DNA of 32,905 bases from a virus. Positions 4,993 to 28,677 of the stretch are shown piece by piece. The notes under the pieces were generated by a model. The model was not told the origin of the DNA, ran no database searches, and worked only from the letters and a program-made list of their open reading frames with translations. The stretch spans positions 1 to 32,905 of IMG/VR virus record IMGVR_UViG_3300047171_000145; one strand, written 5' to 3'. The first letter of the stretch is position 1; each line of letters starts with the position of its first letter. The translations under genes and the position numbers were made by a program.

Positions 4993-5844
4993 CTAGTACA
5001 GATATGCATCGTTCCAGACGATCGTCCACGTGAAGCCGCTCGACGATGCATTGTTGACGTCGACGGCGTTCTCGCCGCCGAGTAGATACGGAAAGAATTC
5101 CGCGTTTCCGATCGAGTTGAAGATCGCGCTCGCGGTGCTGAGCGTATCGAGTCGCGCGACGCCGTTGTACATGATCGCGTTCGGGCGATTGCGCGGGTTC
5201 GAGTCGATCGCGACGACGTCGCCGCTGGCGAGCGTGAGCGTCGGCGTGACCTGAACGACGCCGCCGAATCCCGCCGGCGAGATGCTGACCGCCGGACACG
5301 GGACATTGTTCGCCGTGGCCGTGATCGTGATGATCGGATACGCGATCGCGTTGCCGACCGCGGTGATCGTCTCGCTACCGGGTGCGAACGGTCCGCCGCT
5401 TCGTAGCGTGGCCGACTGCCACCGCGGATCCTCGGCAACGAAATCGATCTGCACGTCGATCGTCATCGCACGTCCGCCCTGCAGTGGCTTTGCTTTCATC
5501 ATTTTGCGCTGACAGATGATGACGCGCGCATCGGAGTCGCCGACGATCAACGGCTGCTTTCCCTGCGAAAGCGCGAGCTCCATGAGGTTGAGCTCGGCCG
5601 TCGCCTGATCGCGATTGAGGATGTAGTTTCCCGAAGAATCGACGGCGCCGTGCCCACCGATCGTGCCCGCGATCGAGATCGTCTTTGCTTTGCGCGATCC
5701 GATCGGGATGACGGATCCGTCGCGCAGCGGGATCTTCTGATCATCGAGATCATTCTCTTGATCGCGTTCGGACACGTAGAACGCCGCCGGAAAGACGTAG
5801 TCGCCGAACTGGATGAGGCTCGCCTGATATCCGACGACGCTCAT
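4993..5844 (-). CDS. Distal tail protein (Dit-like)
   Basis: The 283-residue product follows the tape measure with an ATGA overlap, the normal position of the distal tail protein, which forms the hexameric ring between tube and tip. The N-terminal half has the expected beta pattern: an early FGDYVFPAAFYVSERD segment, IPLRDGSVIPIG, and a FVAEDPRW segment typical of siphovirus tail-component proteins at the first-domain boundary. The C-terminal half is beta-rich, like the galectin-type domain of Dit. Identification rests on order, size and these general features rather than a diagnostic motif. Confidence 0.7.
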   Translation of the reverse strand: MSVVGYQASLIQFGDYVFPAAFYVSERDQENDLDDQKIPLRDGSVIPIGSRKAKTISIAGTIGGHGAVDSSGNYILNRDQATAELNLMELALSQGKQPLIVGDSDARVIICQRKMMKAKPLQGGRAMTIDVQIDFVAEDPRWQSATLRSGGPFAPGSETITAVGNAIAYPIITITATANNVPCPAVSISPAGFGGVVQVTPTLTLASGDVVAIDSNPRNRPNAIMYNGVARLDTLSTASAIFNSIGNAEFFPYLLGGENAVDVNNASSSGFTWTIVWNDAYLY

Positions 5845-8800
5845 CGCGTCACCAGATACGGCCGACTGCGCAGCAGCACGCGCGTCGCCTCGGCTTGCGC
5901 TTCGGAAATCGCCTGCACGTCGTCGACGCCGTGCATGTGATCGACGTTGATATCGCCCATGTTGATCGTCAGCGGCGCCGTCGCTTCGGACGCAGATGAT
6001 GTTGAAGATCCGGTAGTCGACGGCAACGTCGTCACGCCCGCGCCCGCGGTGAGCTGATTGCCGAGGTTCGTGAGCCCGTTCGTCACCGGAGTCGCGCTCG
6101 CGACGAGCTCTTGGAATGTCTGCTGAAGCGACAGACTTCCGGTCTGCACGGCATCTTGGAACGAGCTCATGATCTCGGTCATCCAGTTGCCGAGCTGCGA
6201 ATACGTCGTATCGTTGCCGTTGACTTCGAGATCGCCGATGTTCGGATCGCCGGGGCGCGTATTAAACGACGAGATCTGCCCCGTGCCGAGCGTCCCTTGC
6301 ATCTGCTCGTACTCCGACGCGCTGATTCCGGGCGGCGGCGCGCTCGCGGAAAACTTATCGAGATAGTCGACGATCGCCTGAAGGCCGTATGACGCGCTCT
6401 GGTTATTGCCGCCGGGCGCGGTGCTCGGCGGCGTAAGCCCCATCGCCTGGATGAACTCCGTGACGGAGCTCTGCGTGTTGTACGACGTTCCGTTCGCGCC
6501 GGCCGACGCGCTGCCCGCGCCGACGAGATTGGCCATCGTCTGCCCGTAGCCGGTCTGGCTCTCAAACATGTCGGGGTCTTTGGCCGCCGTCGGATGTGGG
6601 CCGAAAAAACTGCCGATGATCGAGCCGAGTGCCTGTCCGATCGCGGATCCGACCGGACCGCCGAAGATCGCGCCGACGATCGCGCCCGCGCCGCCGAGCG
6701 TTTCCGAAAACGTGCCGCCCTGGCTGAGCCCGGAAAACACTTCCATCGCGCCCGATGCGATTTGTAGCCCTTCGGTGACTTTTCCGAGCGCGCCGGTAAG
6801 ACCGCCGCTCGACGAGGACGTCGTTCCGGTCGTGATGCTATCGTTGAGATCGTTTACGGCTGAAGTGTTCGCCGACGTCGCATCTGCAGCGTCGCCCCAC
6901 GACCCCGCCGCGGCATCGCCCATATCGGCATCGCCCGCGTCCGAAGGCCCGAGCGGCCCCGTGTATTCGCCCGGAATGCTGCCGTCTGCCGGTGCCGGTG
7001 TGCTGCCGGGGCCATAGCCACCGTAGCCGCTATTGCTCCCGCCGATGTTGAACAGATTTTTGAAGAATCCGAGGATGCCGCCGCCGCCGCTGTTGAGGCC
7101 CGAGCCGATGCCGGCAACGGCAAGAACTTCTTTGAGCGCGATGACGCCTGCGAGAATCTGACCGAGCATCCCGAGCAGACCGCCGCCGAGGTTCGAGTTC
7201 TGCAGCGCGGCGGTGATCGGCGCGTTCCACTGGTCGCTTTGCGAGACGTCGATGGGCTGCGTCGAGAGCGTTGCGATCTTGCCGCTCGCGAGCTCGTTCT
7301 GCGTCGGCAGATCGTGCACGACCTGAATCAGCGGTGCCGTGCTCCCGTCGAGCGCGTTGAAGTTGTCGCTGAGGTTCGAGAGGATCGGGATCATAATCCC
7401 GATGAGCCGCAAGAGCCGCGCGAAGATGTTGTAGATATCGATCACCGCGTTTCCGAACGCGTTGAATACCGTGAGCACGCCGTCGATCACGGGGCGAAAC
7501 GCATCGAGCACCTGCGCGAGCACCTTGACGACCTGCGTTACCTCGGACTGCACATCGCGGTACGCTTTCGATTTTTCGATGATATCGCCGAGCAAAGCGG
7601 ACCAGTCGAATATCGCGGTTAGCCCGCCCTGCGGTGTCTCCGAAACTTTGAGGCCAGGGATGAGCTTCGAGAACGTAACCGCGAGCGTGTCGATCACGTT
7701 CGTGAGGTTGAGCTGCGATTTGCTCAGCGCATCGGTGTACGCCTGATGCGCCATCCGTTCGCTATCGATCGCGACGGTCAGATTGTAGTGCGCCTCTTCT
7801 TCTCTCTCTTGCGCCGCCGCGAGTTCTTCGGGTGATGCGTACGCATTCTCGCGCGCGAGCTCGAGTTCGCGCTTCGCAAGGTCATCCGCGATCTTGGCGA
7901 GCGCGACGTCGAGCTGCTGCTCGCGATCGGCGAAGAGCGCCTCGTTCGCCGGCGTTAATTGCCCCGATCGCTCCGCTTCCGATCGCTGCATGCGCAGCTC
8001 TTCTTGATCGCCGCGCACGCCGCGCGTCGCCATTTCGGCCGCGGCCTTGGCGATGTTGTCCGCGATCTTTTGCGTTTCGTCGGCGACGGCTTTGAATGCG
8101 GCCTGACCGTCGCGACCGATCTTCGCGATCGCGGAGTCGATGCGTTCGTATTCGAGCGCCGTCTGCTGTGCGCTGAGGCGATGCTGCGTCGCCTCCTTGT
8201 TGAGATCGATCGCATGCGACACGCGATCCTTATCCGTCGCCGGCAGATGATCAGCGAGCGCCGATTCCTTTTGGGCCGCCGTCATATATGCTTGTTTTTG
8301 AAGGAGCAACGCGGCTTGCAGATCGCGTTCCTTTGCGATCTCGTCGTTCTGCAAACGATAGAGCTCGAGCGCCTGCGTGAGATTTTGCGGATTGCCGCCC
8401 GGCAGTGAATCTTTGTAGGCGTCGACCTTTGTGCTCGAGCTTTCGAGTGCGACCTTCGCGCTTTCGACGCGCGCGATCGCGGCATCGAGCGCGGCCTGGA
8501 TCTGTGCCTTGGCGAGCGCGAGCGCATCGTCGATCGCTTTCTGATCGCCGCCTGGCTGCTTCTGCTGACCGCCGAGACCCGACCAGTCGGCCTTCGGGAT
8601 CTTCGGCGTCGCGACGATCGAGCTCAGCCAGCTCGCGAACTTCGACCATTCCGATTTTGCAAACGCGATGCCGGCGTCGATCCCGTTCTTGATGCCGTTG
8701 TAGAGCGTCGCCGTGGTTTTCGGCATGTAGATCGCCGCGGCGGACGCGAGCTCGCCGATGCCGACCGTCATCGTTGTGGGGCTGAGCGAATCGACGATGC

Positions 8801-10022
8801 CGCGGAAGAACGACAGCAGCGCTTCCCGCGACCCGAGCACGTTGTTGACGAACTCGCCCCATGCGATCGAAAGGAACGACGTGACCGTCTGCCAGCCGCG
8901 CGCGAGCTGATCGGAATGCTGCAGCACGAGATCGAGCACGAGCACGAGCGCCGCAGCGCCCGCGATTATTGCGAGCAGCGGAGCTTCGACTGCGGCCTCG
9001 CCCGTCGCGAGCGTGACTAGCCCTGTTGCAGCGGCAGAAGCTCCACGCGCGAGCATACCGAGCCCACCCGTCACTAGGCTCAGAGTCGAGCCGAAAATCG
9101 TCAGAAGGCCGCGTATCGCGCCGAATGCCTCGGAGAGAATGCCGACGCCCAACTGCGCGGCGCCGAGCGCGAGCGTCAGCGCGGTGAATCCGAGTGCGGC
9201 GAACGTTAGTGCAGCGACAGCCTGCAATACGGGCGCTGGCAATTTCGAGATCGCCGTGAAGAGATGCGTGATCGACTCGGTGAGGATATCGAAGATTCCC
9301 GCGAGTGCCTGACCGAACGGACCGTCGGAGATCGCCGCGAGCGCGTTGCCGAGTCGTCCGATCGCGCCCTCAAGACCGCGCGCGCGGATCTCGGCATCGC
9401 CGGAGAACGATTCTTCAAGCCGACCCATCGCCGTCGCAAAATCGATCGTTTTGCCGGTGGCGTCTTTGGTTGCGATGCCGTAGCGCGAAAGCATCTCGAC
9501 GTGACCCGACGCCGCCATGACCAATATGTGGGTCGCTTCGGCGAGCGTGATGTTTTTCGCGGCGGCCAGATCCGTCGCATCGGCGAGTAGGCGCTGCTGC
9601 TGCTCGGCGTTCGCGCCGACCGTCGCGAACGATGAAAGCGAATCGCGCATGTCGGCGATCGCGTAGCCGCCGCCACGCGCGCTCTGCGCGAACTTCTGCA
9701 GCCATGCTTCTTGCGTCGCGGCCTCGACCGCGTGTCCCATGTTCTTCGCGGTGTTCGATGCGATCTCGAGACGGTCGGACGCTTCGTTCGCGGCTTCTGC
9801 GATCTTGAGCAGACCCTCGACCATTTCGTAGGCGAGGAACGCTTCGAAGAGATCGTGCCAGAGATCTTTGAGATGCTCTGCGCGCTCGCTAATGCCGTCG
9901 AGCTCCTGCACGACGGTACCGGCCCACGCTTTGACCTCATTGGTAGCGGCGCTGAGCCCCGGCGCAAGCTCGTCGGAGATGAACCGTAGCCGGATCGCGA
10001 GGTCGGAATCGCTTGATGCCAT
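5841..10022 (-). CDS. Tape measure protein
   Basis: At 1393 residues this is the longest gene and lies directly after the G/T chaperones, the canonical tape-measure position. It begins one base after the chaperone TAA. Residues about 1-270 are helical with Ala-rich repeats. Several long hydrophobic stretches at about 270-370 and again around residue 990 fit the membrane-spanning parts thought to help DNA pass the inner membrane. Long charged helices occupy about 480-800. The last 250 residues are Gly/Ser/Thr-rich, with a low-complexity hydrophobic Gly/Ala block near 1110-1160. Length implies a tail near 200 nm. No peptidoglycan hydrolase motif was recognised inside it. Confidence 0.93.
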   Translation of the reverse strand: MASSDSDLAIRLRFISDELAPGLSAATNEVKAWAGTVVQELDGISERAEHLKDLWHDLFEAFLAYEMVEGLLKIAEAANEASDRLEIASNTAKNMGHAVEAATQEAWLQKFAQSARGGGYAIADMRDSLSSFATVGANAEQQQRLLADATDLAAAKNITLAEATHILVMAASGHVEMLSRYGIATKDATGKTIDFATAMGRLEESFSGDAEIRARGLEGAIGRLGNALAAISDGPFGQALAGIFDILTESITHLFTAISKLPAPVLQAVAALTFAALGFTALTLALGAAQLGVGILSEAFGAIRGLLTIFGSTLSLVTGGLGMLARGASAAATGLVTLATGEAAVEAPLLAIIAGAAALVLVLDLVLQHSDQLARGWQTVTSFLSIAWGEFVNNVLGSREALLSFFRGIVDSLSPTTMTVGIGELASAAAIYMPKTTATLYNGIKNGIDAGIAFAKSEWSKFASWLSSIVATPKIPKADWSGLGGQQKQPGGDQKAIDDALALAKAQIQAALDAAIARVESAKVALESSSTKVDAYKDSLPGGNPQNLTQALELYRLQNDEIAKERDLQAALLLQKQAYMTAAQKESALADHLPATDKDRVSHAIDLNKEATQHRLSAQQTALEYERIDSAIAKIGRDGQAAFKAVADETQKIADNIAKAAAEMATRGVRGDQEELRMQRSEAERSGQLTPANEALFADREQQLDVALAKIADDLAKRELELARENAYASPEELAAAQEREEEAHYNLTVAIDSERMAHQAYTDALSKSQLNLTNVIDTLAVTFSKLIPGLKVSETPQGGLTAIFDWSALLGDIIEKSKAYRDVQSEVTQVVKVLAQVLDAFRPVIDGVLTVFNAFGNAVIDIYNIFARLLRLIGIMIPILSNLSDNFNALDGSTAPLIQVVHDLPTQNELASGKIATLSTQPIDVSQSDQWNAPITAALQNSNLGGGLLGMLGQILAGVIALKEVLAVAGIGSGLNSGGGGILGFFKNLFNIGGSNSGYGGYGPGSTPAPADGSIPGEYTGPLGPSDAGDADMGDAAAGSWGDAADATSANTSAVNDLNDSITTGTTSSSSGGLTGALGKVTEGLQIASGAMEVFSGLSQGGTFSETLGGAGAIVGAIFGGPVGSAIGQALGSIIGSFFGPHPTAAKDPDMFESQTGYGQTMANLVGAGSASAGANGTSYNTQSSVTEFIQAMGLTPPSTAPGGNNQSASYGLQAIVDYLDKFSASAPPPGISASEYEQMQGTLGTGQISSFNTRPGDPNIGDLEVNGNDTTYSQLGNWMTEIMSSFQDAVQTGSLSLQQTFQELVASATPVTNGLTNLGNQLTAGAGVTTLPSTTGSSTSSASEATAPLTINMGDINVDHMHGVDDVQAISEAQAEATRVLLRSRPYLVTR

Positions 10023-10328: not shown

Positions 10329-10814
10329 CTAGACCGGCTGCATGGGTCGGGTGGAAGTCGACGGCTCCGACTCGCTCGGCGCCGTCGGCGCTGGCGTAGG
10401 GTCCTTTTGCGTTTTCGACAACCCCGCAGCCGCGACGACCTTCGTCCCGAGCCCTTTAAGCAGCTCCATCGGCGAGCACGCCGCGAACCACTCTTCGAAC
10501 ACCGCGACGTCATCGTCCGTCGGCGTCTCGCCGTAGAACGCGGAACGCTTCAGCAGATCGTGCGCGAGATCCAGAAGCTTCGAGATCTCGCCGCCGATCG
10601 TGGCGATGCCATCGTCGGTGCCGCCGCCGCGCATCGCTTTGCTGACCGTCGGGAACTTCTGCAACGTGTCGAGCACGCCCGAGATCTGCGACATGGAGAG
10701 CGCGACGAGATCGAATTCCATGCCGCCGAACTCGAAGATCACGCCCGTCGGCTTGCCGACGACCTGAGCGAGAATCTCCGCGCGCTGATCGGCGCTAAAA
10801 CGACGCTTCGGCAC
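10329..10814 (-). CDS. Tail assembly chaperone, G part
   Basis: A 161-residue mostly helical protein between the major tail protein and the tape measure, where lambda-like phages encode gpG. It starts at GTG overlapping the TAG of the tail-tube gene by one base (TAGTG). The last 25 residues are Pro/Ser/Thr-rich and look like the unshifted tail after the frameshift site. A -1 shift anywhere between bases 10455 and 10332 would fuse it to the T reading frame. Family assignment is from order, length and this frame arrangement. Confidence 0.75.
   Translation of the reverse strand: MPKRRFSADQRAEILAQVVGKPTGVIFEFGGMEFDLVALSMSQISGVLDTLQKFPTVSKAMRGGGTDDGIATIGGEISKLLDLAHDLLKRSAFYGETPTDDDVAVFEEWFAACSPMELLKGLGTKVVAAAGLSKTQKDPTPAPTAPSESEPSTSTRPMQPV
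10403..10416 (-). other. Candidate -1 frameshift region between G and T
   Basis: The minus strand reads GAAAACGCAAAAGG here, in G-frame codons (G)AA AAC... as TCG AAA ACG CAA AAG GAC. It is the most slip-prone tract inside the only interval where a -1 shift can join G to T. It is not a classical XXXYYYZ heptamer, so the exact slip position is uncertain. Confidence 0.35.
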
Positions 10815-11617
10815 TATGCCGCCGCGTTGACGAAGGTCAGCTTCGCGACGTTGCCCGTGGGATCGGCGAACGCGGAGAACTTGCGATCCATGTTCGCGTA
10901 GTCGTTTTCTTTCATCGGCAGCGACATGCTCGCCGGCCGCACCGCGAAGAACTCGGCGATGAGATAGCCGACGGAGTTGTCGATCGGCGAGCGATCGCGC
11001 TTGTAGAGCTTGAGCTGATAGCTCGGCGTCGAATCCTGATACGTTTGCGAAAGCAGCACGCTCTGGCCGTTCGTGTTCGTGTATTCGTACGTCGCCGAAT
11101 ACATCAGGCCCGCATCGCCCGCCGCGAACGTGATCACGCCCAGGGCCGAGACGCTCGCAGCGGATCCGGCCATTTCGGATCCGGCCGCGACGATCGAGTA
11201 AGTGACCGGATACGGTTTACCGTTTGCGCCGACGATGTAGACCGTCAGCTGCAGCGATCCCGGCACGAAGCTCATGCCGTTGGCGAGCGTTGCCGTGTAC
11301 GGCGTTGCCGATGCGACCATGCCCGTTTCGCCGACGACGGCGGCGTCCGCGCTTGCGGTTACGGTGCCGTTGTAGTCCTGGCCGACGTCGACCAAGTTGA
11401 GATTGTAGTTCTTGCAGCTGATATCGATCGTGCGTCGACCGTCCGCCATCGCGACGGCGTATGCGCCTTCGCCGTAGACGCCCTTCTGATCGATCTTGAG
11501 ATCGACCGAGGCGTCATTAAGAATGCCGATGTTCGTGGGGCCCGTGGCACCCGGCAAAAACTTTTGCAAGTACCCGGTGCCGAAGATGATGCGATCTTTT
11601 TGTAGGATCGATGACAT
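10814..11617 (-). CDS. Major tail (tube) protein
   Basis: The 267-residue product is a structural beta-rich protein just before the tail chaperones, the standard place for the tail-tube subunit. I choose ATG 11617, with GGGAG eight bases upstream, over GTG 11626 three codons earlier. The N-terminal region (ILQKDRIIFGTGYLQKF, then a LNDASVDLKID strand) and the C-terminal part (YLIAEFFAVRPASMSLPMKE) fit tube folds. Residues about 95-190 look like an inserted Ig-like domain (FVPGSLQLTVYI ... VITFAAGDAGLMYSATYEY), a common surface decoration of siphovirus tubes. Confidence 0.8.
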   Translation of the reverse strand: MSSILQKDRIIFGTGYLQKFLPGATGPTNIGILNDASVDLKIDQKGVYGEGAYAVAMADGRRTIDISCKNYNLNLVDVGQDYNGTVTASADAAVVGETGMVASATPYTATLANGMSFVPGSLQLTVYIVGANGKPYPVTYSIVAAGSEMAGSAASVSALGVITFAAGDAGLMYSATYEYTNTNGQSVLLSQTYQDSTPSYQLKLYKRDRSPIDNSVGYLIAEFFAVRPASMSLPMKENDYANMDRKFSAFADPTGNVAKLTFVNAAA

Positions 11618-11637
11618 GAGCTCCACTCCCGTCGGAT

Positions 11638-12141
11638 CTATAGCGCGGTAACGCTATACTCGGCTTTCATCTCGTATCGCTGATCGACGTCGTTAAAGTC
11701 GGGGATGCCGGCTTCGATTTCGACGCATTCACGAACGATAAGGGGCAACGTGGTGGAGCTCGCTGCGCGCGATAAGTCCGCCGTGCCCGGCGGAGCGTCC
11801 TGGTCTGCTAGGAAAATACGCGCCCGAATCGCCTCGTAGAGCATCGTCACGTCGTCTGTCGATGCATCGCTGATAATCCACAGATGCAGACGCAGCTCGC
11901 GTTCCATGATGCGCCGCGAGAACGATCGGCGTACGCCTTCGACCGCGAACGCGACCACCGGCATCGGCGGCGGATTGGGAGCGAAATGTTGCGCGAGTTG
12001 CCAGATCGCTTTCGGCACGATCTGCGCAGCCGGCACGATCACGAGCGGCTGCGCGTCGACCTGATAGTTGAGCGGGACGGCCGTGAGCACGGCGTAGATC
12101 GCGTCGCGCAGCGCCTGCGTCGTCGGGTTCGTCGCAATCAT
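11638..12141 (-). CDS. Tail terminator / tail completion protein
   Basis: The 167-residue protein starts at ATG 12141 in an ATGA overlap with the gp10-like gene. An upstream in-frame extension to 12234 is Arg-rich shadow sequence. Its order (gp10-like, this gene, tail tube) and length match tail terminator proteins, which cap the tube and dock it to the head. Two strands around MPVVAFAVEG and LRLHLWIISD, followed by a helix, are consistent with that fold. No unique motif proves it. Confidence 0.65.
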   Translation of the reverse strand: MIATNPTTQALRDAIYAVLTAVPLNYQVDAQPLVIVPAAQIVPKAIWQLAQHFAPNPPPMPVVAFAVEGVRRSFSRRIMERELRLHLWIISDASTDDVTMLYEAIRARIFLADQDAPPGTADLSRAASSTTLPLIVRECVEIEAGIPDFNDVDQRYEMKAEYSVTAL

Positions 12142-12626
12142 TTCGCCTTCGACTCTTCGACCGCGGCGCGCAGCTCGGCGATGATCGCGTCCGCGATAGC
12201 GGCGCCGACTTTGTTCATCACGTCCTTCATCCACGGGCGCGCGATCATCTTCATCGTGCCCTCTTGCAGCCAGCGATCGAGTTGCTTCATCGCGGGATCC
12301 CCGTTCATATCGATGCGGCCCTCGATGATTTCGCCGGGCGTTCCGACGGGCGGCGTCACACGCATGGCGCGCACGTATGCTCCGGTCTGCTGGTGGATGA
12401 TGGGATCCGCGTGCGGCGGATCGGGATGGCGCGTCGCGTACGGATGGCCCATCGCCGCGAGAACTGCAAGCGAATGATCGCCCGCGGTGATCTCTTTGAG
12501 CGATGCGGCGCGCGCCTTCTGCAAGCCGCGCACGACGGCGCCGAACGCGCGCGCTTTCACGCGCGTGTCGAAGTTGCGCAAGCCGCCGATCGTGGCGGTG
12601 AGGCCGACTATCTCCGCCTTGATCAT
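12138..12626 (-). CDS. HK97 gp10-like tail/neck component
   Basis: A 162-residue protein beginning MIKAEIVGLTATIGGLRNFD, with helical N-terminus, a central loop containing many Pro and His, and a basic C-terminal helix. HK97 gp10-type proteins have this pattern (short beta start, long helix, RPWM-like segment near the C-terminus; here ARPWMKDVM). It is followed by the tail terminator through an ATGA overlap. The gene starts seven bases after the SGNH hydrolase stop, so the esterase cassette has been placed between this gene and the head connectors. Confidence 0.7.
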   Translation of the reverse strand: MIKAEIVGLTATIGGLRNFDTRVKARAFGAVVRGLQKARAASLKEITAGDHSLAVLAAMGHPYATRHPDPPHADPIIHQQTGAYVRAMRVTPPVGTPGEIIEGRIDMNGDPAMKQLDRWLQEGTMKMIARPWMKDVMNKVGAAIADAIIAELRAAVEESKAK

Positions 12627-12633
12627 GGCTTCG

Positions 12634-14088
12634 CTAATGGCCCTGGAAGATGATCGTGCTGTTCGTTCCCGCGCTAATCTGATTGGTGTTTTTCAGATAG
12701 GCCATGAGCCAGAGGAACATGAGCTCCGGAACGCCCTGATCGCTCGGATGGCCACCGTCGGTGAGCCCCTGATAGTTGAGATCGGCGAAGGTTTGATTCG
12801 CCGTCGTGTCGCCGATGATTACGCCGCTCGAGACGAGCGCGGCGTAGTTGTACGTGCGCAGCAGCGGAAGTGATGCCGCGCTTCCGGTGCCGAACGCGTT
12901 ATTGAAGCGAACCCAATCGAAGTACGGCGGAAAGTCGAAGTAGATCGTCACGCCGGGTATCTGCGCTTGAAGATAGGCGACGATGCTCTGCATGTTCGAA
13001 AGCCACGTCGCCGCCGTGACGCCGGCGAGCGCATCGTTCGACCCGAGCGTGATGAACACGGTCTTGCTGCCGAGCGCGTTCATGTTCTTGACGAACGCAT
13101 TCATATAGCCGGTCGGCGACGAGTTAAGCCAGTCCGCCGTTTTCGCCCCGGAGAAGCCCATGTTGATTGGGACGTACCGCTGGCTAAGCGTTTGCGAGTT
13201 GAGGATGCGCGAAAATAGGTCTGGAACGGTTTGAAGGGTCGTCGATAGGCCGTACGTCAGCGAATCACCCATGAAACCGAGGTACGTCGGTGAACCGTAC
13301 GACAGTGCGGTATCGGAGTAGATCTGCACCGACGAATACGAATAGGTCGAGCCGCCGCTCACGCCGTCGTACACGCCGATCGAGACGCGTCCGCCGCTTT
13401 GAAGCTCTTGCGTCGTGTCCGAGTTCGAGACCGTTGCGAACGTCGTTCCGGCCGTCACGTCCTTCACGACGCCGGTCAGGGTCGTCGTCGTCGATCCGTC
13501 TCCCGTCGCCGTGAGATCGAGCGAGTAGACGTGACCGGTTGCAACGCTAACGGTCGGCGAGCTGATGAGCGTCGTTACGGTGCCGTTCCCGCCCGAAAGC
13601 CGATCGATCACGACCTGATTGCCGGTGATGCTTAGCACGAGAGCATACTCGTCGGTGTTGTACGTGCCTCTGACGCCGACGAAATACGTCATCGCCGTGC
13701 CCGCCGCCGGCACAGCCGTGGTCGTCGCGACGATCCGCTGATTCGGAGTCGTCGTTAGCGCCGGGTCTTGAAATAGGTGAGCGAAGGTTGCCTTCGTCGT
13801 GCAAGTCGCGCCCGCGCTCGTGATGTTCCAGCCCGTTCCGGGCACCGAGCCGTTCGAGCCGATGTAGTCGTACCAGCCGTTGCCGACGCCCCAGCTGCTA
13901 TTGGGCGGCCCGTAGCTGCCAGTCGTCGCGCCGGTCGGCGTAACCGCGCGCGTCGCGAACGTGTCGGAGAGCACCTGGATCGTCGGCGAGCCCGCGATCG
14001 CGGGCAAAGGCGCGCATACGCAAAAACCGACTATCAGTCCGAGTAGAAGCCGCGTGAATTTACTCATAAGAAATCGTGTAAGCTCCAC
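12634..14088 (-). CDS. Secreted SGNH/GDSL hydrolase with N-terminal jelly-roll-like region
   Basis: A 484-residue predicted esterase. The three SGNH blocks are intact: GDSLTYG (catalytic Ser276), LGSND (Asn351) and DGGHPSD (Asp444, His447). The family removes acyl groups, often acetyl, from polysaccharides or lipids; the substrate here is unknown. Residues about 12-32 form a Sec-type signal peptide ending PAIA-GS. Residues about 35-260 are beta-rich and resemble a concanavalin/LamG jelly roll, perhaps for sugar binding. GTG 14088 is chosen because GAGGAGG sits five bases upstream; ATG 14067 is an alternative that keeps the signal. It overlaps the preceding secreted-protein gene. A signal peptide on a late phage enzyme suggests action in the periplasm, at the surface or outside rather than only as virion part. 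Confidence 0.85.
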   Translation of the reverse strand: MELTRFLMSKFTRLLLGLIVGFCVCAPLPAIAGSPTIQVLSDTFATRAVTPTGATTGSYGPPNSSWGVGNGWYDYIGSNGSVPGTGWNITSAGATCTTKATFAHLFQDPALTTTPNQRIVATTTAVPAAGTAMTYFVGVRGTYNTDEYALVLSITGNQVVIDRLSGGNGTVTTLISSPTVSVATGHVYSLDLTATGDGSTTTTLTGVVKDVTAGTTFATVSNSDTTQELQSGGRVSIGVYDGVSGGSTYSYSSVQIYSDTALSYGSPTYLGFMGDSLTYGLSTTLQTVPDLFSRILNSQTLSQRYVPINMGFSGAKTADWLNSSPTGYMNAFVKNMNALGSKTVFITLGSNDALAGVTAATWLSNMQSIVAYLQAQIPGVTIYFDFPPYFDWVRFNNAFGTGSAASLPLLRTYNYAALVSSGVIIGDTTANQTFADLNYQGLTDGGHPSDQGVPELMFLWLMAYLKNTNQISAGTNSTIIFQGH

Positions 14089-15112
14089 CCGTGCCTCCTC
14101 CGGTGCAGTAGATGCCGTTCGAGCTTAGCTGCTCGAATGGGCCTAGATTGCCGCCCGAAACCTCGGCGGTGGTAGCAACAACGGCGATGACTTGACCAGA
14201 TGCCGCCGTGTTAGCGTAGCAAGTTAGCGCCCCGGTCGTCGTCGGAACCGTCGTAACCAGAATTCGCTCGATAACGTGAATAGCGGAAGCGGCGGCTATC
14301 AGAGCGGGTGTCGATGACACGTAAGAGACGGAGCCGGAAACATCTTCGTAGAGCGCCGCTCCATTATTTCCGACAGCTTCACAATTGGTGCTGGCGACAT
14401 TGCACGTTGCTCCGCGAACGATGCCAGACGAATCGACGTACGCCGGGTTAAAGGACGCTCCGTTGTAGCCGCCCATGCCGACGAACGAGCCGGGGAGCGC
14501 AGTCTGCGAGTATGTGTAGCTATACGGCTGAACCGCGTTCGTCTGATACGTGAGCATCGCGCCGCTTGAAGTCGTCTGGCAAGGAACGGCCTGACCGGTC
14601 GTGAGGCTCAGCGTGGCGGAATTGTAAATGCAGACCATGCCGACGCCGGAGGATTGCAGTGCGGTCTGCCCTTGCGTGACCATCGAGTACGGCTCGCCGA
14701 CCGTCGCCGTAAGTGGACCGAGATTGATGCCGCCGTTCGTGGGCGAACACGTGATCGGGATGACTTGCCCCGACGCAACCGCCGTCGGAACGGCGACGGG
14801 GCAGGCTTCGACGATCGCCGTGTTCGCTGCCGGCGTTTGCGTCGCGCTCGGGAACGGCACCGATGAGTACGGCAAGAAAAGCGAGACGGTGCCGATGTTG
14901 TTCGTACCGGCCGGAAGCGGGCCCGTGATTCCGAAAGCCGAGTTGCCGATCGAGCCGATAGTCGATGAGCCCGGGCCGAGCGGTGGCAGCGTCGGTTGCG
15001 CGATCTGTACGTTCTGACCGTAGGAGCCGTACGATTGCGCGGTCGCTACGATCGGAATGAAAAGAGAGAGCGCAATGAAGGCAAGCGCGCGGAGTGTGAT
15101 GCGATTTTTCAT
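14060..15112 (-). CDS. Secreted beta-rich protein of unknown function
   Basis: The 350-residue product begins with a clear signal peptide: basic MKNRITLR, a hydrophobic core, and a likely cleavage ATA-Q near residue 25. ATG 15112 has AGGAG eight bases upstream; an in-frame TTG at 15130 is less likely. The mature part is rich in Thr, Ser, Gly, Ala and Val, with paired cysteines and repeated SGQV/TGQAVP segments. Its C-terminal 80 residues loosely resemble the end domain of the two preceding genes (SGQVIAVV near a conserved turn). It overlaps the SGNH hydrolase gene, and the two were probably acquired and expressed together. It could be an enzyme partner, adhesin or surface decoration; no family is recognised. 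Confidence 0.7.
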   Translation of the reverse strand: MKNRITLRALAFIALSLFIPIVATAQSYGSYGQNVQIAQPTLPPLGPGSSTIGSIGNSAFGITGPLPAGTNNIGTVSLFLPYSSVPFPSATQTPAANTAIVEACPVAVPTAVASGQVIPITCSPTNGGINLGPLTATVGEPYSMVTQGQTALQSSGVGMVCIYNSATLSLTTGQAVPCQTTSSGAMLTYQTNAVQPYSYTYSQTALPGSFVGMGGYNGASFNPAYVDSSGIVRGATCNVASTNCEAVGNNGAALYEDVSGSVSYVSSTPALIAAASAIHVIERILVTTVPTTTGALTCYANTAASGQVIAVVATTAEVSGGNLGPFEQLSSNGIYCTGGGTGGAYTISYE

Positions 15113-15130
15113 TGCGTTCTCTCCTAGCAA

Positions 15131-15652
15131 TTACGAGTAGATCGCGGTGAACGCAGGCGAGCCGGCACCGGTGTTTGCGTACAGGCTCGTCGAAAACGGA
15201 CGACCGCCGCCGTAGATCGGAACGTCTCCGGGCGGGAAGTTTGCGGGGATCACGGCGATGACTTTGCCCGACGCTCCGTCGGTGAGCGTCGTCGCGACGG
15301 TTCCGCTCGCGCTGACGACGAGACCGTACAGCGTTCCCGCGGTGGATTTGATCGCCGCTGCGGTCGCGGCTGCAGCTACGGCTGCCGTCGACGTCGCCGC
15401 GGAAACCGATCCCGAGGTGACTGCGACGTTCAGCGATCCGCTCGTGAACGTGAGTGAAAGAATGTTGGCGAGGCGAGCGTAGATGCCCGAAAGCCAACCG
15501 CGGATTCCGGTGCCGGGATTGGTGCCGACGCCGTCGGTACCATCGAGTGCCGGCAAGAATCCCGTTGCCGGCGTGATGTAGCCGGGCGATCCGGCGGTGG
15601 TGAGTGGCCCATCGATCAGTCGAGTTTCGAGGGCTTGGCTGGAATCATACAT
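15131..15652 (-). CDS. Decoration- or fibre-like structural protein
   Basis: A 173-residue protein starting at ATG with AGAGG seven bases upstream. A Gly/Pro-rich N-terminal part precedes a short helix (SGIYARLANIL), an Ala/Thr-rich linker and a C-terminal beta domain. That domain carries KVIAVIPANFPPGDVPIYGG and ends SPAFTAIYS; the upstream gene ends with a similar domain (ILAIVPANFPGGDVHI). No signal peptide is present, unlike the next two genes. Position after the head-closure gene suggests a head, neck or fibre appendage. The shared domain indicates duplication within this locus. Confidence 0.6.
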   Translation of the reverse strand: MYDSSQALETRLIDGPLTTAGSPGYITPATGFLPALDGTDGVGTNPGTGIRGWLSGIYARLANILSLTFTSGSLNVAVTSGSVSAATSTAAVAAAATAAAIKSTAGTLYGLVVSASGTVATTLTDGASGKVIAVIPANFPPGDVPIYGGGRPFSTSLYANTGAGSPAFTAIYS

Positions 15653-15682
15653 TGGACGACCTCTTTCCGAACGCTAAGTGAG

Positions 15683-16522
15683 TTAAGGACCTACTCCGAT
15701 CGAGTATGCTGGGGCTAGACCGTTCGGCTTTGCGAACACGTTCGTGCCGAAGAATTTTGGAGTCGCGATGTGCACGTCTCCACCGGGGAAATTGGCCGGC
15801 ACGATCGCGAGGATCGGTCCGTTCTCGCCGTCGCTAAATGTGATCGACGCTTGGCACGCAGGCGTCGGAATAACGGTGATGCTGTAGAGATGAGCGGCGG
15901 TCGAAGTCGCGCCCGGCACTTGCGATGGCGTCACGATGGCAGTCGGTGCCGATCCCGAAGCGACCGCGAGATTTGCAGTAGTCAAGATCTCACCCTCACC
16001 CTCACCCGCTCCTGTGTAGCTTCCAGATCCGCTCGTCGGCGTTGAATTCGAAGGCGGCGCGAGCAACGAAGGCAGACCAGTCCACGCCTTTCCGACCGCG
16101 AGCTCGGCCTGCAGCGATGGCTGAACGATCGTGTACTCCGAAACTGCCATCACCAGATACTCGACGAAATCTTCGTCGACGATCTTGTCGCCGACGCGCA
16201 GATCCGGCATCGCCGATCGACCGTTGCCCGAAAGGCGATAGACGACGCCGTTGAGCGTGAAGAATGCGCCCGGCGTCGTGCCGCTCGGGATCTGCGAGAG
16301 TGGCAGCGGATCAAGAAAGAGCAGGTGCGAGATCGACGTAGCCATCGGGCCCGCGAGTTCGCTCTGGATCATGCCTTTCGCGATCGCGTCGATGAGCGCT
16401 GGTAATTCGTAGCCAATCACGGTCGGGATCGCTGGCACCCGATCGCCGCTCATCGATACGCCCGTGCCTTCGCCTTTGCGCAATATCGTCGCGACGTTGG
16501 GCCGCAAGATCGTTGCCGTCAC
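15683..16522 (-). CDS. Head closure-like protein with appended decoration domain
   Basis: The 279-residue protein starts at GTG in a GTGA overlap with the connector gene. Residues about 1-145 look like a head-closure or adaptor protein: a short beta-barrel pattern with LRVGDKIVDEDFVEYLVMAV, typical of stoppers that close the portal channel. A Ser/Thr/Gly linker (about 150-180, with the GEGEGE run) joins a C-terminal domain containing ILAIVPANFPGGDVHI, shared with the following 173-residue protein. Known stoppers are usually near 100-130 residues, so the second half is an addition, probably exposed on the neck. Confidence 0.6.
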   Translation of the reverse strand: MTATILRPNVATILRKGEGTGVSMSGDRVPAIPTVIGYELPALIDAIAKGMIQSELAGPMATSISHLLFLDPLPLSQIPSGTTPGAFFTLNGVVYRLSGNGRSAMPDLRVGDKIVDEDFVEYLVMAVSEYTIVQPSLQAELAVGKAWTGLPSLLAPPSNSTPTSGSGSYTGAGEGEGEILTTANLAVASGSAPTAIVTPSQVPGATSTAAHLYSITVIPTPACQASITFSDGENGPILAIVPANFPGGDVHIATPKFFGTNVFAKPNGLAPAYSIGVGP

Positions 16523-17424
16523 GCGAGTCGCCGCCGCATGAACGGTCGCAGCACTTCTTTTGCCGGCTGCGGGATCGCGAAGGGCTCGTTGCGCCGATCG
16601 ATCTGCTGATAGCCCTGACGCACGCGAGAGAGCCCGCCAAGCCCGGCCTTTTGCACGAGCGCATAGTCGATCATTTCCGTCGCCGTCATCGTCGTAGCGT
16701 CCTTAATCGCTTGCGGATACTCGGCGGCGTAATAGCCCGCGGTGTAGTACAGCTGCACGATGTTCGCCGTGAAACCGAGATTCGAGATCGCGCCGAAGAG
16801 CGCGTAGCTCGCGACGGCGTACGAGAGGATCTCGATGTATCGCGAGTCGCGGTTAATCACGATATCGTCGGGCGAGAACGTCGCAGTTTCCGACGGCGAG
16901 ATCTCGATCACGAACTGGTTGACCGTTCGGATCGGCGCCTTGTACGGATAGATTCGCCGCGTTGCTTTGCGCCACGGATGCTGCTCGACGAGCGACGTGA
17001 TGCGCACGCCGCCCTGTTCGGAATAGCCGATGTAGGAATCGACGTACGAGCTCGCGCGCCGCAAGATGCTGTCGAGATCTGAGCTCGTGAACTGGCTCGT
17101 GTCGGTGCCTTCGCCTGCGGCCTGATATTCGGCGACTTGCACATACTGCGAAACGATCGAGATCGGAATGCTCACGCTCAAGGTGCCGTCCGCGCTCGTG
17201 ACGACGAGTGATCCGGTGAGCGCGCCGTCCGGCACAATGAACGATGCATCGCTGTCGTCGGCGACGGTGAGCTCGAGCGACGTCGTTACGGTCGAAGGCG
17301 CACCGGTTTGCGGATCGGCTGGACCCTGTTGCGCGAGGACCGCGGTTGCGCCAGTAAGACCGCTTCCCGTGAGCGCGATCGTGTTGCCGACTGCGCCGAC
17401 GATCGAGCGCGCCGATACTACCAC
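16519..17424 (-). CDS. Head-tail connector (gp6-like) with N-terminal TIG-like domain
   Basis: In this 301-residue protein, residues about 100-301 fit the HK97 gp6/SPP1 gp15 connector type: helices with DLDSILRRASSYVDSYIGY, then strands, then QAIKDATTMTATEMIDYAL. Such rings extend the portal. Residues 1-95 read like an IPT/TIG Ig-like fold: NTIALTGSGLTGATAVL, a FIVPDGALTGSLVVTSADGT segment and a closing strand. Connectors of this family normally lack such a domain. The start is GTG 17424 with AAGGA nine bases upstream and a seven-base overlap with the preceding stop. It is followed by the head-closure gene via GTGA. Confidence 0.65.
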   Translation of the reverse strand: MVVSARSIVGAVGNTIALTGSGLTGATAVLAQQGPADPQTGAPSTVTTSLELTVADDSDASFIVPDGALTGSLVVTSADGTLSVSIPISIVSQYVQVAEYQAAGEGTDTSQFTSSDLDSILRRASSYVDSYIGYSEQGGVRITSLVEQHPWRKATRRIYPYKAPIRTVNQFVIEISPSETATFSPDDIVINRDSRYIEILSYAVASYALFGAISNLGFTANIVQLYYTAGYYAAEYPQAIKDATTMTATEMIDYALVQKAGLGGLSRVRQGYQQIDRRNEPFAIPQPAKEVLRPFMRRRLA

Positions 17425-17765
17425 GGCGACGATTCCTTGCGCGTGTTGTCGAGCAGCTCGCGCTTGGATGGGACGAAGCCGTGTTTCTCGGCGATCGCGC
17501 GCGCGAGCTCTTCGTTCTCGACGATCTCCGCGATCGCGGCATCGGTCGCTGCGTCGATCGCATTGCCGATCATGTCCGCTGCTACGTCTTTGCCACGCGA
17601 GCGCGATCGAGGCGATGAGTGCTCGATGACGACCATGCCGGCGGCTGCGAGCTCGTCGGCCTGGTCATCAGTCAGCTCTGTGAGCCCTTCTTCGCCGACG
17701 ACGACTTCGGCGGAAGCGGTCGGGATTTTGATGCCGGCATGATAGCCGACGATTCGGTAGAGCAC
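17418..17765 (-). CDS. Small head-region protein, 115 residues
   Basis: I start this gene at GTG 17765 because GGAGG lies six bases upstream; the in-frame Arg-rich extension to 18017 is shadow of the previous gene. The N-terminal half is beta-like (LYRIVGYHAGIKI, SAEVVVGE) followed by an acidic helix TDDQADELAAAG. The C-terminal half has helices rich in Ala, Glu and Lys. Position between capsid and connector suggests a head or neck accessory role. It overlaps the 3' part of the 61-residue ORF by 94 bases in another frame. Confidence 0.6.
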   Translation of the reverse strand: MLYRIVGYHAGIKIPTASAEVVVGEEGLTELTDDQADELAAAGMVVIEHSSPRSRSRGKDVAADMIGNAIDAATDAAIAEIVENEELARAIAEKHGFVPSKRELLDNTRKESSPW

Positions 17766-18507: not shown

Positions 18508-19797
18508 TTAGCTCGTCTTGAGCTGCGCGCGCGCCATGAACAGCGGTGCGAATTGCACGAGGCCGCCCATGAGGAACGGGATGTAGAGCTTGCGCAGCGT
18601 GCCGTCGGTGCCGACCGGGATCTCGAGGATCGTCGGTGCGGGTCCGCCGAGATACGCCCACGCAAGCATGTCCATGTCGACGACGTACGCGTCTTGGTAC
18701 GTGTGGCCGCCCGTGGAGATCGTGCCGATCGAATCGCCCGGGATCGCGATAAGCGGAAGCTCGGCTTCGCCCGCGACGATCTTCGGCACCGTCAGACCCG
18801 GCACGACTTCGACGGTGTTGTTGATGCGAACCAGCGGCAGCATCTCGTCGACGATGAATTCGCGCGAGCTGATGCTCAGGAGCACGGCACTCGGATTTCC
18901 GCCGGCGTCGATCACGTTGTTTGCTGCGAGCCGGATCGCTTTCGTCGTCGGCTGCTGGCCGACCGCGTACGTTGCGGTTTCGTCGACCGACGCCGTGTTC
19001 GCCGCTGGCGAATTATTGTTGAGCGTCCAACGCATGCCGTTGAACGAGTTCGGGCTGTAGAGGCCGTTCGGCGCCGTTGCCGTCGTCGACGTCGGATCGC
19101 TTTGCTGGTACCGGAACATCGCGGCTTGCGCGCGATGCACGAGCGCAGTAATGCCGCCCTGAATCTCGCGCGTTTCGGGATCGTACGCGACGCCGCCGGC
19201 CCGCACGGCGTTGAGGGCCTTTAGCGTGATGCCGCGCCGCGTCGCGAGAATCGCGATCTCTGCGTACGCACGCGTGTACACGTTCGCGTCATCCGTGACC
19301 GAGCCGGATTCGGTGATGAATTGCGCATCGCCGTAGCTCGTCTGCTGGTTGTACGCGTGCACTTCGCCGTTCGACGGGATCTTATCGATCATGTCGTACA
19401 GCGGGAATTTCTTCACGAAGAGCTCGTAGACGGTCGGATCGAGATCCTGACGGATCAACGGACCGACGCCGAGCGAATCGATCGCCTTTACGAGATCCGC
19501 GGATGCGCCCGAGGCGACGAGTGCGTCGCGCGCGCCTTGCGCCATCTGGCGCTCGAAGCCCTGATAGCTGTACTGCGGCATGTCGTCGAAGTCGAGCGGC
19601 TTCCAGAGCGGATACGCTCCGGCTTCTTTGCGCTCGCGGCGATCGGTATGCAGCGTGCGCGCTAGTTTGTCGATCGCAGCGTCGAGCTTCGATGTGCCCT
19701 GATCGGCGGCTTTAGCTTTGAGGGCGTCGATCTCGGCCTGCAGCGCCGCCATGCGCTCTTCGGGCGATTTGATGACCGGAACGTCGGTGACGGACAT
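18508..19797 (-). CDS. Major capsid protein, HK97 fold
   Basis: The 429-residue protein begins at ATG with AGGAG six bases upstream. A helical N-terminal arm (EERMAALQAEIDALKAKAAD) resembles the delta domain that the protease removes; the protease gene is immediately upstream. Downstream are HK97-type features: an N-arm region, a long spine-helix zone, an E-loop-like VTDDANVYTRAYAEIAI segment and a beta-rich C-terminal P/A-domain area ending FMGGLVQFAPLFMARAQL-like sequence. It packs DNA as the main shell subunit. Gene order protease-capsid is standard. Confidence 0.85.
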   Translation of the reverse strand: MSVTDVPVIKSPEERMAALQAEIDALKAKAADQGTSKLDAAIDKLARTLHTDRRERKEAGAYPLWKPLDFDDMPQYSYQGFERQMAQGARDALVASGASADLVKAIDSLGVGPLIRQDLDPTVYELFVKKFPLYDMIDKIPSNGEVHAYNQQTSYGDAQFITESGSVTDDANVYTRAYAEIAILATRRGITLKALNAVRAGGVAYDPETREIQGGITALVHRAQAAMFRYQQSDPTSTTATAPNGLYSPNSFNGMRWTLNNNSPAANTASVDETATYAVGQQPTTKAIRLAANNVIDAGGNPSAVLLSISSREFIVDEMLPLVRINNTVEVVPGLTVPKIVAGEAELPLIAIPGDSIGTISTGGHTYQDAYVVDMDMLAWAYLGGPAPTILEIPVGTDGTLRKLYIPFLMGGLVQFAPLFMARAQLKTS

Positions 19798-19814: not shown

Positions 19815-21224
19815 CTAGCGAATACTGCGGAGTCGAGCGTCGTCGGTCTCGCCGCTTTTCGCTCGCGATAGATCGCGGGCGATTTCATGCGCAGAACGCG
19901 CACGATGCGTCGGGTCCGTCGTTCGGGTTCCGTAGCTTCCACTGGCGTAGGCGGCTGAGCGCCGTCCGAGTGGGATTGCTCCCCTGGTCGCGATCCGAGC
20001 TTCGATCTCCATTAGCTCTTCACGCTTGGTCTCTAAGAGTTTCTGTACGTTGTCGAGCTCGGCGTTGAGCGCTTTGGCGCGATCAGCGATTTGCTGTTCG
20101 GCTTCTTCCGCTGCCTTCGAGATACGACCGGACTCGATCGCCTTCACGTCGATGACCGTTGCGCCCGCCTCTTCCCACTCTGGGGCGTCGCTGTCCTTTG
20201 GCAGAAGCGATCCGATTTTTCCGTGCGCGGCCTTCAGAGACTCCATCGCCATCTTGCAAACGCCGTGGCCGGCTGCGTCGGAGATGTGCTGCATCGCGCT
20301 ACAGAGCACTTCTTGCTGATCGTCGCTGAGGGGCGTTTCCGCGTTCTCGTCGTCGACGCCATCGTCGTCGGTGAGCTCTTTGATGGTGCGCATCAGGCCC
20401 GCGATCGCGGACGGTTTCACTTCGGGTGATCCCGTTGCGGCATCGGCGGCGAGCTGATCGAGCAACTTCGCGATCTGCGGATGCTTTTCGCGGATCTCGG
20501 GATCGACGTTGCGCGCGATCTCGAGCATCTTCGGGGACAGCTTCGGCTTACCGACGGTCGGCCGCGGCGTGTTCTTGATGGCATCGAGGAACGACGAGCG
20601 TTTCGCTGCGAGCTCGTCGGCTGTCGGTTTCGCGGTCGCTTCGGGCCGCACGTCGATCGACTTGCGCAGCGCTTTCGCCATCTGCTCGATGTACGCGCGC
20701 TGGTTCGCGGGAATGCCGACGACCGACACCTCGAACAGATCGATATCGGTGATGATGAATACCCAGTCGCCATCGGGCGTATCCTCGAACTCCCAATCGA
20801 GGATGCGTCCGCCGATCGAGAAGCCAAGCTTCGTTCCCTCGGTGATGTGCGTGTACGCTTTCACCGCCCGATCGTTGTTCTGGTCGACGCGCGCGCGGAT
20901 CCAGAGCTCCGTGCACTGACCCTGTTCGGGATCTTCGGCCGTCTTGAGATAGCTCTCTTCGCACGTGCCGAACACGTCCTCGGGCACTTCGTAGCTGTGG
21001 TTCAGCCAGAGCGTCATCGCTTTGACCTGATTGAGCATCTTCTGCTGGCACGCGAGCGAGATGCGATCGCCGCCGCGATCGATCACGGTCGAGCTCGCGC
21101 AACCCTCGATGTAAAGCTGGTCTTTGCCCGCGTCGTCGGCCGCTTTGCGCAGCTCGAGTTCGCGCGTGAAAATCTTGAAATCGCCCGGTGCTGACGCGCG
21201 CTTGGGAGGCTTGACGACTGGCAT
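19815..21224 (-). CDS. Prohead protease fused to scaffold-like C-terminal region
   Basis: Residues about 20-190 form an HK97-type (S78) serine protease: DRGGDRIS early, catalytic His76 in WLNHSYEVPEDVFG, Ser136 in KLGFSIGGR, and the acidic member probably near DLFEVSVVGIPAN (162-165). It cleaves capsid and scaffold during maturation. From about residue 200 to 469 the protein is long, helical and charged, like a scaffolding domain. The protease is therefore probably made as a protease-scaffold fusion; no separate scaffold gene is present. I start at ATG 21224 because GGAG lies six bases upstream; the in-frame GTG at 21359 has a basic, shadow-like extension. Confidence 0.85.
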   Translation of the reverse strand: MPVVKPPKRASAPGDFKIFTRELELRKAADDAGKDQLYIEGCASSTVIDRGGDRISLACQQKMLNQVKAMTLWLNHSYEVPEDVFGTCEESYLKTAEDPEQGQCTELWIRARVDQNNDRAVKAYTHITEGTKLGFSIGGRILDWEFEDTPDGDWVFIITDIDLFEVSVVGIPANQRAYIEQMAKALRKSIDVRPEATAKPTADELAAKRSSFLDAIKNTPRPTVGKPKLSPKMLEIARNVDPEIREKHPQIAKLLDQLAADAATGSPEVKPSAIAGLMRTIKELTDDDGVDDENAETPLSDDQQEVLCSAMQHISDAAGHGVCKMAMESLKAAHGKIGSLLPKDSDAPEWEEAGATVIDVKAIESGRISKAAEEAEQQIADRAKALNAELDNVQKLLETKREELMEIEARIATRGAIPLGRRSAAYASGSYGTRTTDPTHRARSAHEIARDLSRAKSGETDDARLRSIR

Positions 21225-21398
21225 GAACGTCTCCGATGGAGCTTTGCTGCCGGTGGAGACGGCGAAGCTCTGACGGCGCGCGGTTTCGACGGGTTGAGCG
21301 CGTCTGTCATGCGAAAGCTGAATAATCCGCACTCCACACGGAAGGGTCCCATGAACCACGAAATGCGCGTTCTCGGGAGCCAGCGTGAGTAGGCGATG

Positions 21399-22188: not shown

Positions 22189-23559
22189 TTACCGCCGCGC
22201 GGGTAAGCCGCGACCGAAAGGGTTCGCGGCCTTGCTACCTCCGCCGTCTTTCGGATCTTCGGGATCGTCGTCGCCACCCGCCGGTTCTTCACCGCCGCCT
22301 TCGCCCGGATGCTCAGGGTTATCGAGCGGCGCCGTCGTCTGCGTCGCGTACGGCTCGTCGCCCCACTCGACGGGATCTTTGCCTTCGCGCTGCCGGATTT
22401 CGTTCGGAAACGTCACGCCGATCGACATGTAGATCTTATCGATCTGCGCCTGCTGGAATTCGTCGCGCGACACGATATCGGCGAACTCGAAGCCGTGATT
22501 CGGGTCGATGAACTGCACGACTTCGCGCGTGAAGTAGCCGGCTACGCATTCGGCGAGCGCGAGTAGCCCGCGATCGGTCTTGCTTGCTGACGTTTTCGAC
22601 GTCGAGCGATTCACATCGGCGATCAGATTCGCATCGGTCAGGTCGAGCTCAAAGATCGTCGTGATGATCTTGGCGAGCCACGCTTTGTACTCCATGCGCT
22701 GCTGCTCGCGATTCGTCGGTCGCAACTGGACCGCTTTGATTTCCGAGCCTTCAGGGCCACCGCCCATAATCGCGGTCGTGCGCGTGCCCGCGATCTCTTG
22801 CTCGTAGTATTCGCGGAACGCTTGCAGCTCTTGCGGTGTCGTGCCGGGACCGAGATCAAGCAGCACGTCCGGCGCCGTCTGCTTCATCGCTTCGTAGTCG
22901 TATTGCTCGCCGTACAGCGCGGCCTCGATGATGCGTACCGTTGCTTCGACCGGCGACCACCCGATCGGCGAGTCCGTCGATGGATTGTGCATCATGTAGA
23001 GCAGCTCGTCGTTCGTCAGCGACGCAATGAGCTGGAAGCCTTCGTACTGGAAATAGCGTGGCTCGTTAGGGTTCGCGTGCGTTTCCCAGCGCGGATCGAT
23101 CGTGATCGTTTCGCCCGCGACCGGCCACAGCGCCACGATCTCGCCGCGCGCGTTGAATTCTTTCTCGATGCATCCCGCGTCGAGCACGAGCAGATCAAAG
23201 AGCACTTTGCCGAGGAGCTCGCGGAACGAGATGCGCGTCGGGTTCGGGTTCGTGAAGAGCTGACGCGCGGCTTTCGCGACTGCGGGATTGACCGGCGCGA
23301 GCGGATCATCCGTGCGCACGATGCGCCACTTCGCCACCTCGAGCGCGTGCCGACGACGAAAGATCGCGTTGGCGACCCACTCGTTGTTGCGCGCGAAGTT
23401 CTTGAGCATCTTCGCCCCGCGCTTCTGTTGGCCGCCGACGGTGATCGCACGCACGGAACGCGCGTACGGCGCGATCGTCTGCGCGCTGCGTGTCGTCGTG
23501 GCGATCGCGGCTGCGGCCACCGGCGGCGCCATCGCGCTCGCCGGCGGTAGCCAGCTCAT
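22189..23559 (-). CDS. Portal protein, HK97 type
   Basis: The 456-residue protein shows the portal layout: a disordered Ala-rich start, a helical clip/wing region with NNEWVANAIFRRRHALEVAKW, mixed strands (EKEFNARGEIVALWPV), TPQELQAFREYYEQEIAG in the stem-crown region, and a charged Gly/Pro-rich end. The dodecameric portal is the DNA channel and terminase dock. It follows the terminase after one 72-residue gene and precedes the morphogenesis gene. ATG 23559 is one base after the preceding TAA. The Gly/Asp/Pro-rich last 50 residues are probably disordered. Confidence 0.85.
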   Translation of the reverse strand: MSWLPPASAMAPPVAAAAIATTTRSAQTIAPYARSVRAITVGGQQKRGAKMLKNFARNNEWVANAIFRRRHALEVAKWRIVRTDDPLAPVNPAVAKAARQLFTNPNPTRISFRELLGKVLFDLLVLDAGCIEKEFNARGEIVALWPVAGETITIDPRWETHANPNEPRYFQYEGFQLIASLTNDELLYMMHNPSTDSPIGWSPVEATVRIIEAALYGEQYDYEAMKQTAPDVLLDLGPGTTPQELQAFREYYEQEIAGTRTTAIMGGGPEGSEIKAVQLRPTNREQQRMEYKAWLAKIITTIFELDLTDANLIADVNRSTSKTSASKTDRGLLALAECVAGYFTREVVQFIDPNHGFEFADIVSRDEFQQAQIDKIYMSIGVTFPNEIRQREGKDPVEWGDEPYATQTTAPLDNPEHPGEGGGEEPAGGDDDPEDPKDGGGSKAANPFGRGLPARR

Positions 23560-28676: not shown

Positions 28677-28677
28677 G

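Follow-up and report, generated by a model that had tools for sequence, protein, structure and literature searches.

A gene cassette encoding a putative Sec-exported SGNH esterase between the head and tail genes of a phage record

SGNH hydrolases act on many substrates, and bacterial secreted SGNH carbohydrate esterases commonly consist of a signal peptide, an accessory beta domain and the SGNH catalytic domain. In phages, SGNH proteins located in tail fibres are tested esterases or deacetylases (PMC13123978, PMC8471582). The SGNH tail fibres and tailspikes, such as G7C gp63.1, Aristophanes gp41 and the receptor-binding proteins of Klebsiella prophages (PMC8471582, PMC13123978), are encoded within the structural block and form distal parts of the tail, and the removal of O-acetyl groups from surface polysaccharides has been shown or proposed for them; the text of PMC13123978 mentions no signal peptide. 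At the opposite end of the tail, excerpts of PMC4759559 describe the neck passage structure of the lactococcal 936 phages, whose accessory neck genes vary between relatives, and the virion of phage Milano, including its neck and collar, is rich in disulfides (PMC10491603). Neither an enzyme nor a signal peptide is described for these neck structures in the excerpts of the two reports. Among glycoside hydrolases, a characterised GH187 enzyme from a marine bacterium is described in an excerpt of PMC11943901.

The DNA analysed here (the window) comprises an entire virus record of 32,905 bases from an uncultured tailed phage, with a G+C content of 62.5%. A portal search identified the closest related phage, L039/L040 (60% identity), and L042 is the remainder of the L039 record; L039 and L042 together are referred to below as the sister. 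The cassette region was compared with this one sister record, L040 as fetched ending before that region. The head-tail genes of the window were all on the minus strand. The terminase, portal, protease, major head, tape measure, Dit and hub-type proteins were assigned from profile matches and gene order, and the others as stated in parentheses:

23779-25029, minus strand: terminase
22189-23559, minus strand: portal
19815-21359, minus strand: protease
18508-19797, minus strand: major head protein
16519-17424, minus strand: head-tail adaptor, flanking core gene (phrog_442, E 1.5e-4; 61% identity to the sister)
15683-16522, minus strand: probable head-closure protein, 279 aa (named from its position between the adaptor and gp10)
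15131-15652, minus strand: 173-aa protein without a signal peptide (C-terminal domain paralogous to that of the head-closure protein)
14060-15112, minus strand: 350-aa Ser/Thr/Gly-rich beta-type protein with a predicted Sec signal peptide (residues 1-25)
12634-14067, minus strand: SGNH/GDSL hydrolase, 477 aa (PF13472, PF07675, motifs and signal peptide)
12138-12626, minus strand: gp10-like tail completion/Neck1 protein, flanking core gene (phrog_5, E 1.3e-4; 58% identity to the sister)
11638-12144, minus strand: tail terminator (by position)
10814-11614, minus strand: protein in the tail-tube position (gene order)
5841-10022, minus strand: tape measure
4993-5844, minus strand: Dit
3907-4968, minus strand: LamG/polysaccharide-lyase-like protein, 353 aa (between Dit and hub)
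1055-3886, minus strand: hub-type protein

The terminase frame runs on upstream of its first GTG (25029-25240, minus strand) and resembles the N-terminus of the sister terminase there; this stretch holds no common start codon before the next stop, so that an unusual start or a frameshift may be involved. The hub-type protein opens with tandem repeats, each about 18 residues long (YAEALVADTSHARVASI), and residues 163-803 are its only part common to the sister. No significant relative of the protein in the tail-tube position was found among the viral contigs searched. A pentapeptide-repeat protein (27999-28850, minus strand) matched Alr5209/HetL below the cut-off and, more weakly, Qnr/MfpA-type proteins, likewise below the cut-offs. 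A PADLOC search gave no match.

The head-tail genes of the sister were collinear with those of the window and 34-67% identical (terminase, 50%; portal, 60%; head protein, 67%; adaptor, 61%; gp10, 58%; terminator, 54%; tube, 54%; Dit, 56%; tape measure, 34-38%; hub, 57%), whereas the terminase relatives L002-L034 were too distant for a comparison of synteny. In the window, a cassette separates the head-closure gene (15683-16522) from the gp10-like gene (12138-12626). The initial annotation had described the range 12634-15652 as two signal-peptide genes that interrupt a compact run from head closure to tail. Both genes are present in this range, but it contains three genes in all, since the gene of the 173-aa protein without a signal peptide also belongs to it. 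None of the three was detected in the sister, and a search of its record for an SGNH protein was empty. In the sister, the adaptor gene is followed by a single 526-aa open reading frame (L039:15406-16986), and the gp10 gene overlaps its stop; the direct overlap of the head-closure frame and gp10 bears out the interruption. The cassette would thus be a lineage-specific insertion at the neck.

The SGNH and 350-aa open reading frames are intact and oriented with the head-tail operon. The start of the 350-aa protein was assigned to the ATG at 15112, with AGGAGAG located six bases upstream. For the SGNH gene, a start at 14088 was replaced by the ATG at 14067, which overlaps the preceding stop by 8 bp (ATGAGTAA). 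This overlap and the poor ribosome site of the SGNH gene suggest that its translation is coupled to that of the preceding gene. Scans of 11600-17500, which covered sigma-70 promoters and intrinsic terminators only, found neither. Because of the start/stop overlap and the absence, within these scans, of the promoter and terminator that a moron carries of its own, the cassette appears to be cargo of the late operon rather than an independent moron, which suggests that it is read together with the late genes. In codon use, the SGNH gene was no different from the core genes, and the head-closure, 173-aa and 350-aa genes were slightly atypical; a foreign origin was not concluded from these values.

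These features bear on the possibility that the SGNH protein is cargo for the benefit of the host, that is, a bacterial exported esterase for the use of environmental polysaccharides (an auxiliary metabolic gene) or for a change of the lysogen surface. The order of leader, beta-sandwich and SGNH domain is a common layout of bacterial secreted carbohydrate esterases, and the lineage may be temperate, since the sister record has host-like DNA: L042:1-5300 encodes malate synthase, a cluster of Tyr, Gly and Thr tRNAs and an NHL-repeat protein whose leader is lipoprotein-like, and is probably host DNA at a provirus end. Two groups were searched with the sister malate synthase; no match was obtained at E 1e-80, which is uninformative on the host. 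However, expression in a lysogen is unlikely for genes that have a start/stop overlap amid neck genes and no promoter or terminator of their own, and the core-like codon use of the SGNH gene also argues against this origin. We regard host-benefit cargo as improbable.

The 477-aa protein matched PF13472 above the cut-off (E 2.2e-14) and contained all four SGNH motif blocks in order (GDSL at residue 267, NMGFSG at 302, LGSND at 341 and DGGHPSD at 437) in a domain spanning residues ~266-446, in agreement with its description as an intact SGNH hydrolase. The jelly-roll-like region that had been proposed for its N-terminal part is consistent with a match of residues ~77-153, within the region 27-260, to the beta-sandwich family Cleaved_Adhesin (PF07675; 23.8 bits, above the cut-off of 21.4; E 4.8e-5). 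No PDB match was obtained at E 0.01 with the whole protein, and the best match of the SGNH domain alone was an SGNH esterase (E 0.42). The predicted model of the mature protein alone had a mean pLDDT of 35.5, too low to be usable. Among phages, the SGNH domain was most similar to Klebsiella tail fibre proteins (E 5e-3), a similarity at the domain and superfamily level only; in phage BUCT541, the match falls in a 2454-base gene for a putative tail fibre. No significant relative of the SGNH protein was found in viral contigs and phages, nor was anything significant found in genome contigs and plasmids. A search of ~840 genomes of three groups yielded no more than four matches to the SGNH region, all of them weak, and their loci contained one ordinary bacterial SGNH protein and otherwise nothing useful. 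The layout of the protein is that of the bacterial secreted SGNH esterases, but the protein is phage-borne within a structural block and has no close homologue in the genomes searched. It shares the catalytic superfamily and the location in a structural block with the SGNH tail fibres and tailspikes. Those are distal tail parts, whereas the window gene occupies a neck locus, and the N-terminus of its product is a signal peptide followed by the Cleaved_Adhesin-like region instead of a virion-attachment region; the protein was therefore not grouped with the tail-fibre esterases. The neck locus and the Sec leader set it apart from the known phage SGNH esterases.

Signal peptides were scored with a simple home-made rule (pass, 4.0) and not with SignalP, and the base rates are rough. 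As had been claimed for the two neighbouring genes, typical Sec/SPase-I leaders were found on the 350-aa and SGNH proteins. The leaders are MKNRITLRALAFIALSLFIPIVATA, followed by Q, and MSKFTRLLLGLIVGFCVCAPLPAIA, followed by G. In both, the scoring script recognised a charged n-region (+3/+2), a hydrophobic h-region free of charged residues and an AXA site at residue 25; neither has a lipobox or a twin arginine. These two proteins were the only ones to pass among the 25 likely genes of the window. The same rule was passed by 6 of 446 open reading frames from loci retrieved through their terminase (bacterial DNA is present in some of these loci) and by 1 of 68 frames of three annotated phage loci. 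Such leaders, which had been called unexpected on virion parts, are thus rare by this rule elsewhere. Near virion genes they are not unique to the window, since a protein encoded between Dit and hub in the sister also has one.

The mature chain of the 350-aa protein has 8 Cys residues (104, 122, 161, 178, 237, 244, 298 and 336), compared with 0-1 in its neck neighbours. Disulfides formed after export would fit this composition. Since virion proteins can also have many disulfides, as in Milano (PMC10491603), these residues are no proof of export. No family was assigned to the 350-aa protein in Pfam, PHROGs or NCBIfam, and neither it nor the 173-aa protein had a significant relative in viral contigs or phages. 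The C-terminal domain of the 173-aa protein aligned with that of the head-closure protein (BLASTP E 2e-11; 36% over 97 aa), and on this alignment the two domains are taken as paralogues. The C-terminal ~85 aa of the 350-aa protein may possibly share this domain; its score against the domain of the 173-aa and 279-aa proteins was reached by 3 of 1000 shuffles (BLASTP E 0.042), which is a hint at most. The predicted model of the domain from a three-row alignment had a mean pLDDT of 38.9, again too low to be usable. If the 350-aa protein does carry this domain, its origin may lie in a virion part. The DUF6093 protein of phage MinS1 gave no BLASTP alignment with the head-closure protein.

Residues 1-147 of the head-closure protein are conserved in the sister (47% identity), where they form the N-terminal part of the 526-aa frame. 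Residues ~161-443 of this frame resemble a glycoside hydrolase of the GHL15/GH187 (endo-1,3-fucanase) type and matched PDB 9nhf (E 3.3e-7) and 8rg3 (E 4.4e-7) and, just below the cut-off, Pfam GHL15 (1.6e-5). This domain, found in the sister only, is a TIM barrel unrelated to SGNH, and the fusion protein has no signal peptide. The fusion agrees with the polysaccharide link suggested in the initial annotation, in that a glycoside hydrolase domain is carried at the same site. Judged from the sequences, both phages apparently have a polysaccharide-active enzyme domain at the neck site, with unrelated folds and different delivery: in the sister as a fusion to a virion part, and in the window as separate proteins with Sec leaders. 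The sister fusion is possibly the more striking find, as its implication is that the neck of a siphophage-type virion carries an enzyme.

The SGNH and beta proteins may be mounted in a neck collar or whisker, as the sister hydrolase presumably is through its fusion, with leaders that stay uncleaved or with the proteins joining the virion at lysis after a stay in the periplasm. The sister fusion at the same locus points in this direction, and the recurrence of the head-closure C-terminal domain in the 173-aa protein, and perhaps in the 350-aa protein, is expected of a collar built from paralogues. In addition, the cassette resembles the variable accessory neck genes of the lactococcal 936 phages as excerpted in PMC4759559, a likeness of position only. 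On the other hand, canonical cleavable Sec leaders would remove the proteins from the cytoplasm, where heads and tails join; moreover, the similarity of the 350-aa protein is weak, and no domain common to any virion protein was detected in the SGNH protein. Virion mounting is the main rival of the export reading given below but is rather unlikely for the window proteins. It is favoured as the older use of the slot, because the sister enzyme forms one chain with a virion part and lacks a leader.

We tentatively prefer the reading in which late Sec export of the esterase edits the host's own surface polysaccharide, with a benefit for release and against rivals, although we would give it slightly less than an even chance. 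Both proteins would be made with the late structural proteins and leave the cytoplasm via Sec before lysis, the SGNH protein as an O-acyl esterase whose N-terminal beta-sandwich probably binds glycan, and its co-translated 350-aa partner as a probably disulfide-bonded beta protein. The esterase would take acyl, probably acetyl, groups off the host envelope or capsule polysaccharide. The likeliest gain would be that the infected cell and its debris neither recapture progeny nor let rivals adsorb. The two clean leaders, the intact SGNH motifs, the adhesin-type N-terminus, the Cys content of the 350-aa chain, the start/stop overlap and the sister, with its enzyme at the same site and its own exported-looking protein, speak for this reading; the fusion of the sister enzyme to a virion part speaks against it. 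We infer late expression, actual export, activity, substrate and benefit alike. Periplasmic export would also fit a helper of lysis or release that acts on O-acetylated peptidoglycan or other periplasmic envelope polymers, and the SGNH family is known to include a peptidoglycan O-acetylesterase (PDB 4K7J, a template in PMC8471582). However, the SGNH gene lies outside any lysis cassette, with no lysis gene recognised beside it, and a long beta-sandwich and a Cys-rich partner are atypical of lysis proteins; this role is highly improbable.

Under the preferred reading of surface editing, some phages would edit the host surface from outside before lysis, which would affect release, the exclusion of rivals and host range. 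We propose that the neck slot is a plug-in site for swappable polysaccharide-active enzymes; as it is based on two genomes only, this is a proposal and not a rule. The tail tip is where phage enzymes acting on surface polysaccharides are usually looked for, whereas those considered here are encoded at the neck locus of two related phages, and the neck loci of uncultured phages would, if the proposal is true, be worth mining for carbohydrate enzymes. In a decidedly improbable extension, the neck of this siphophage lineage would be a modular enzyme platform, some parts of which pass through Sec, are oxidised outside and join virions at lysis; the head-closure protein would then carry either a fused glycoside hydrolase, as in the sister, or a docking domain for the paralogous beta proteins and the esterase, as in the window. 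If true, the assembly of a tailed-phage virion would be completed outside the cytoplasm.

A second variable slot was found between Dit and hub. In the window, its 353-aa product (3907-4968) matched phrog_2448 (2.8e-25) and, both below the cut-off, Pfam Laminin_G_3 (4.1e-5) and Polysacc_lyase (1e-4); it had no match in the sister. The same slot of the sister encodes a 499-aa repeat protein (L042:10428-11927, minus strand) with the Sec leader MHRKLIAIVLALVLTPVAVAAG, 12 Cys residues spaced as pairs and a tail-fibre-like stretch (DIFPIDHGGATYQMPLS). Its homology to the 350-aa protein was unsupported, the score lying within those of shuffles. By their predicted leaders and composition, exported-looking Cys-rich proteins occur among the structural genes of both members of the lineage. 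In a distant virus (L043:7005-12558, minus strand; 24% portal identity), the hub-type gene is also followed by genes for a large protein whose N-terminus has a hydrophobic segment and for a protein with a lipoprotein-type leader.
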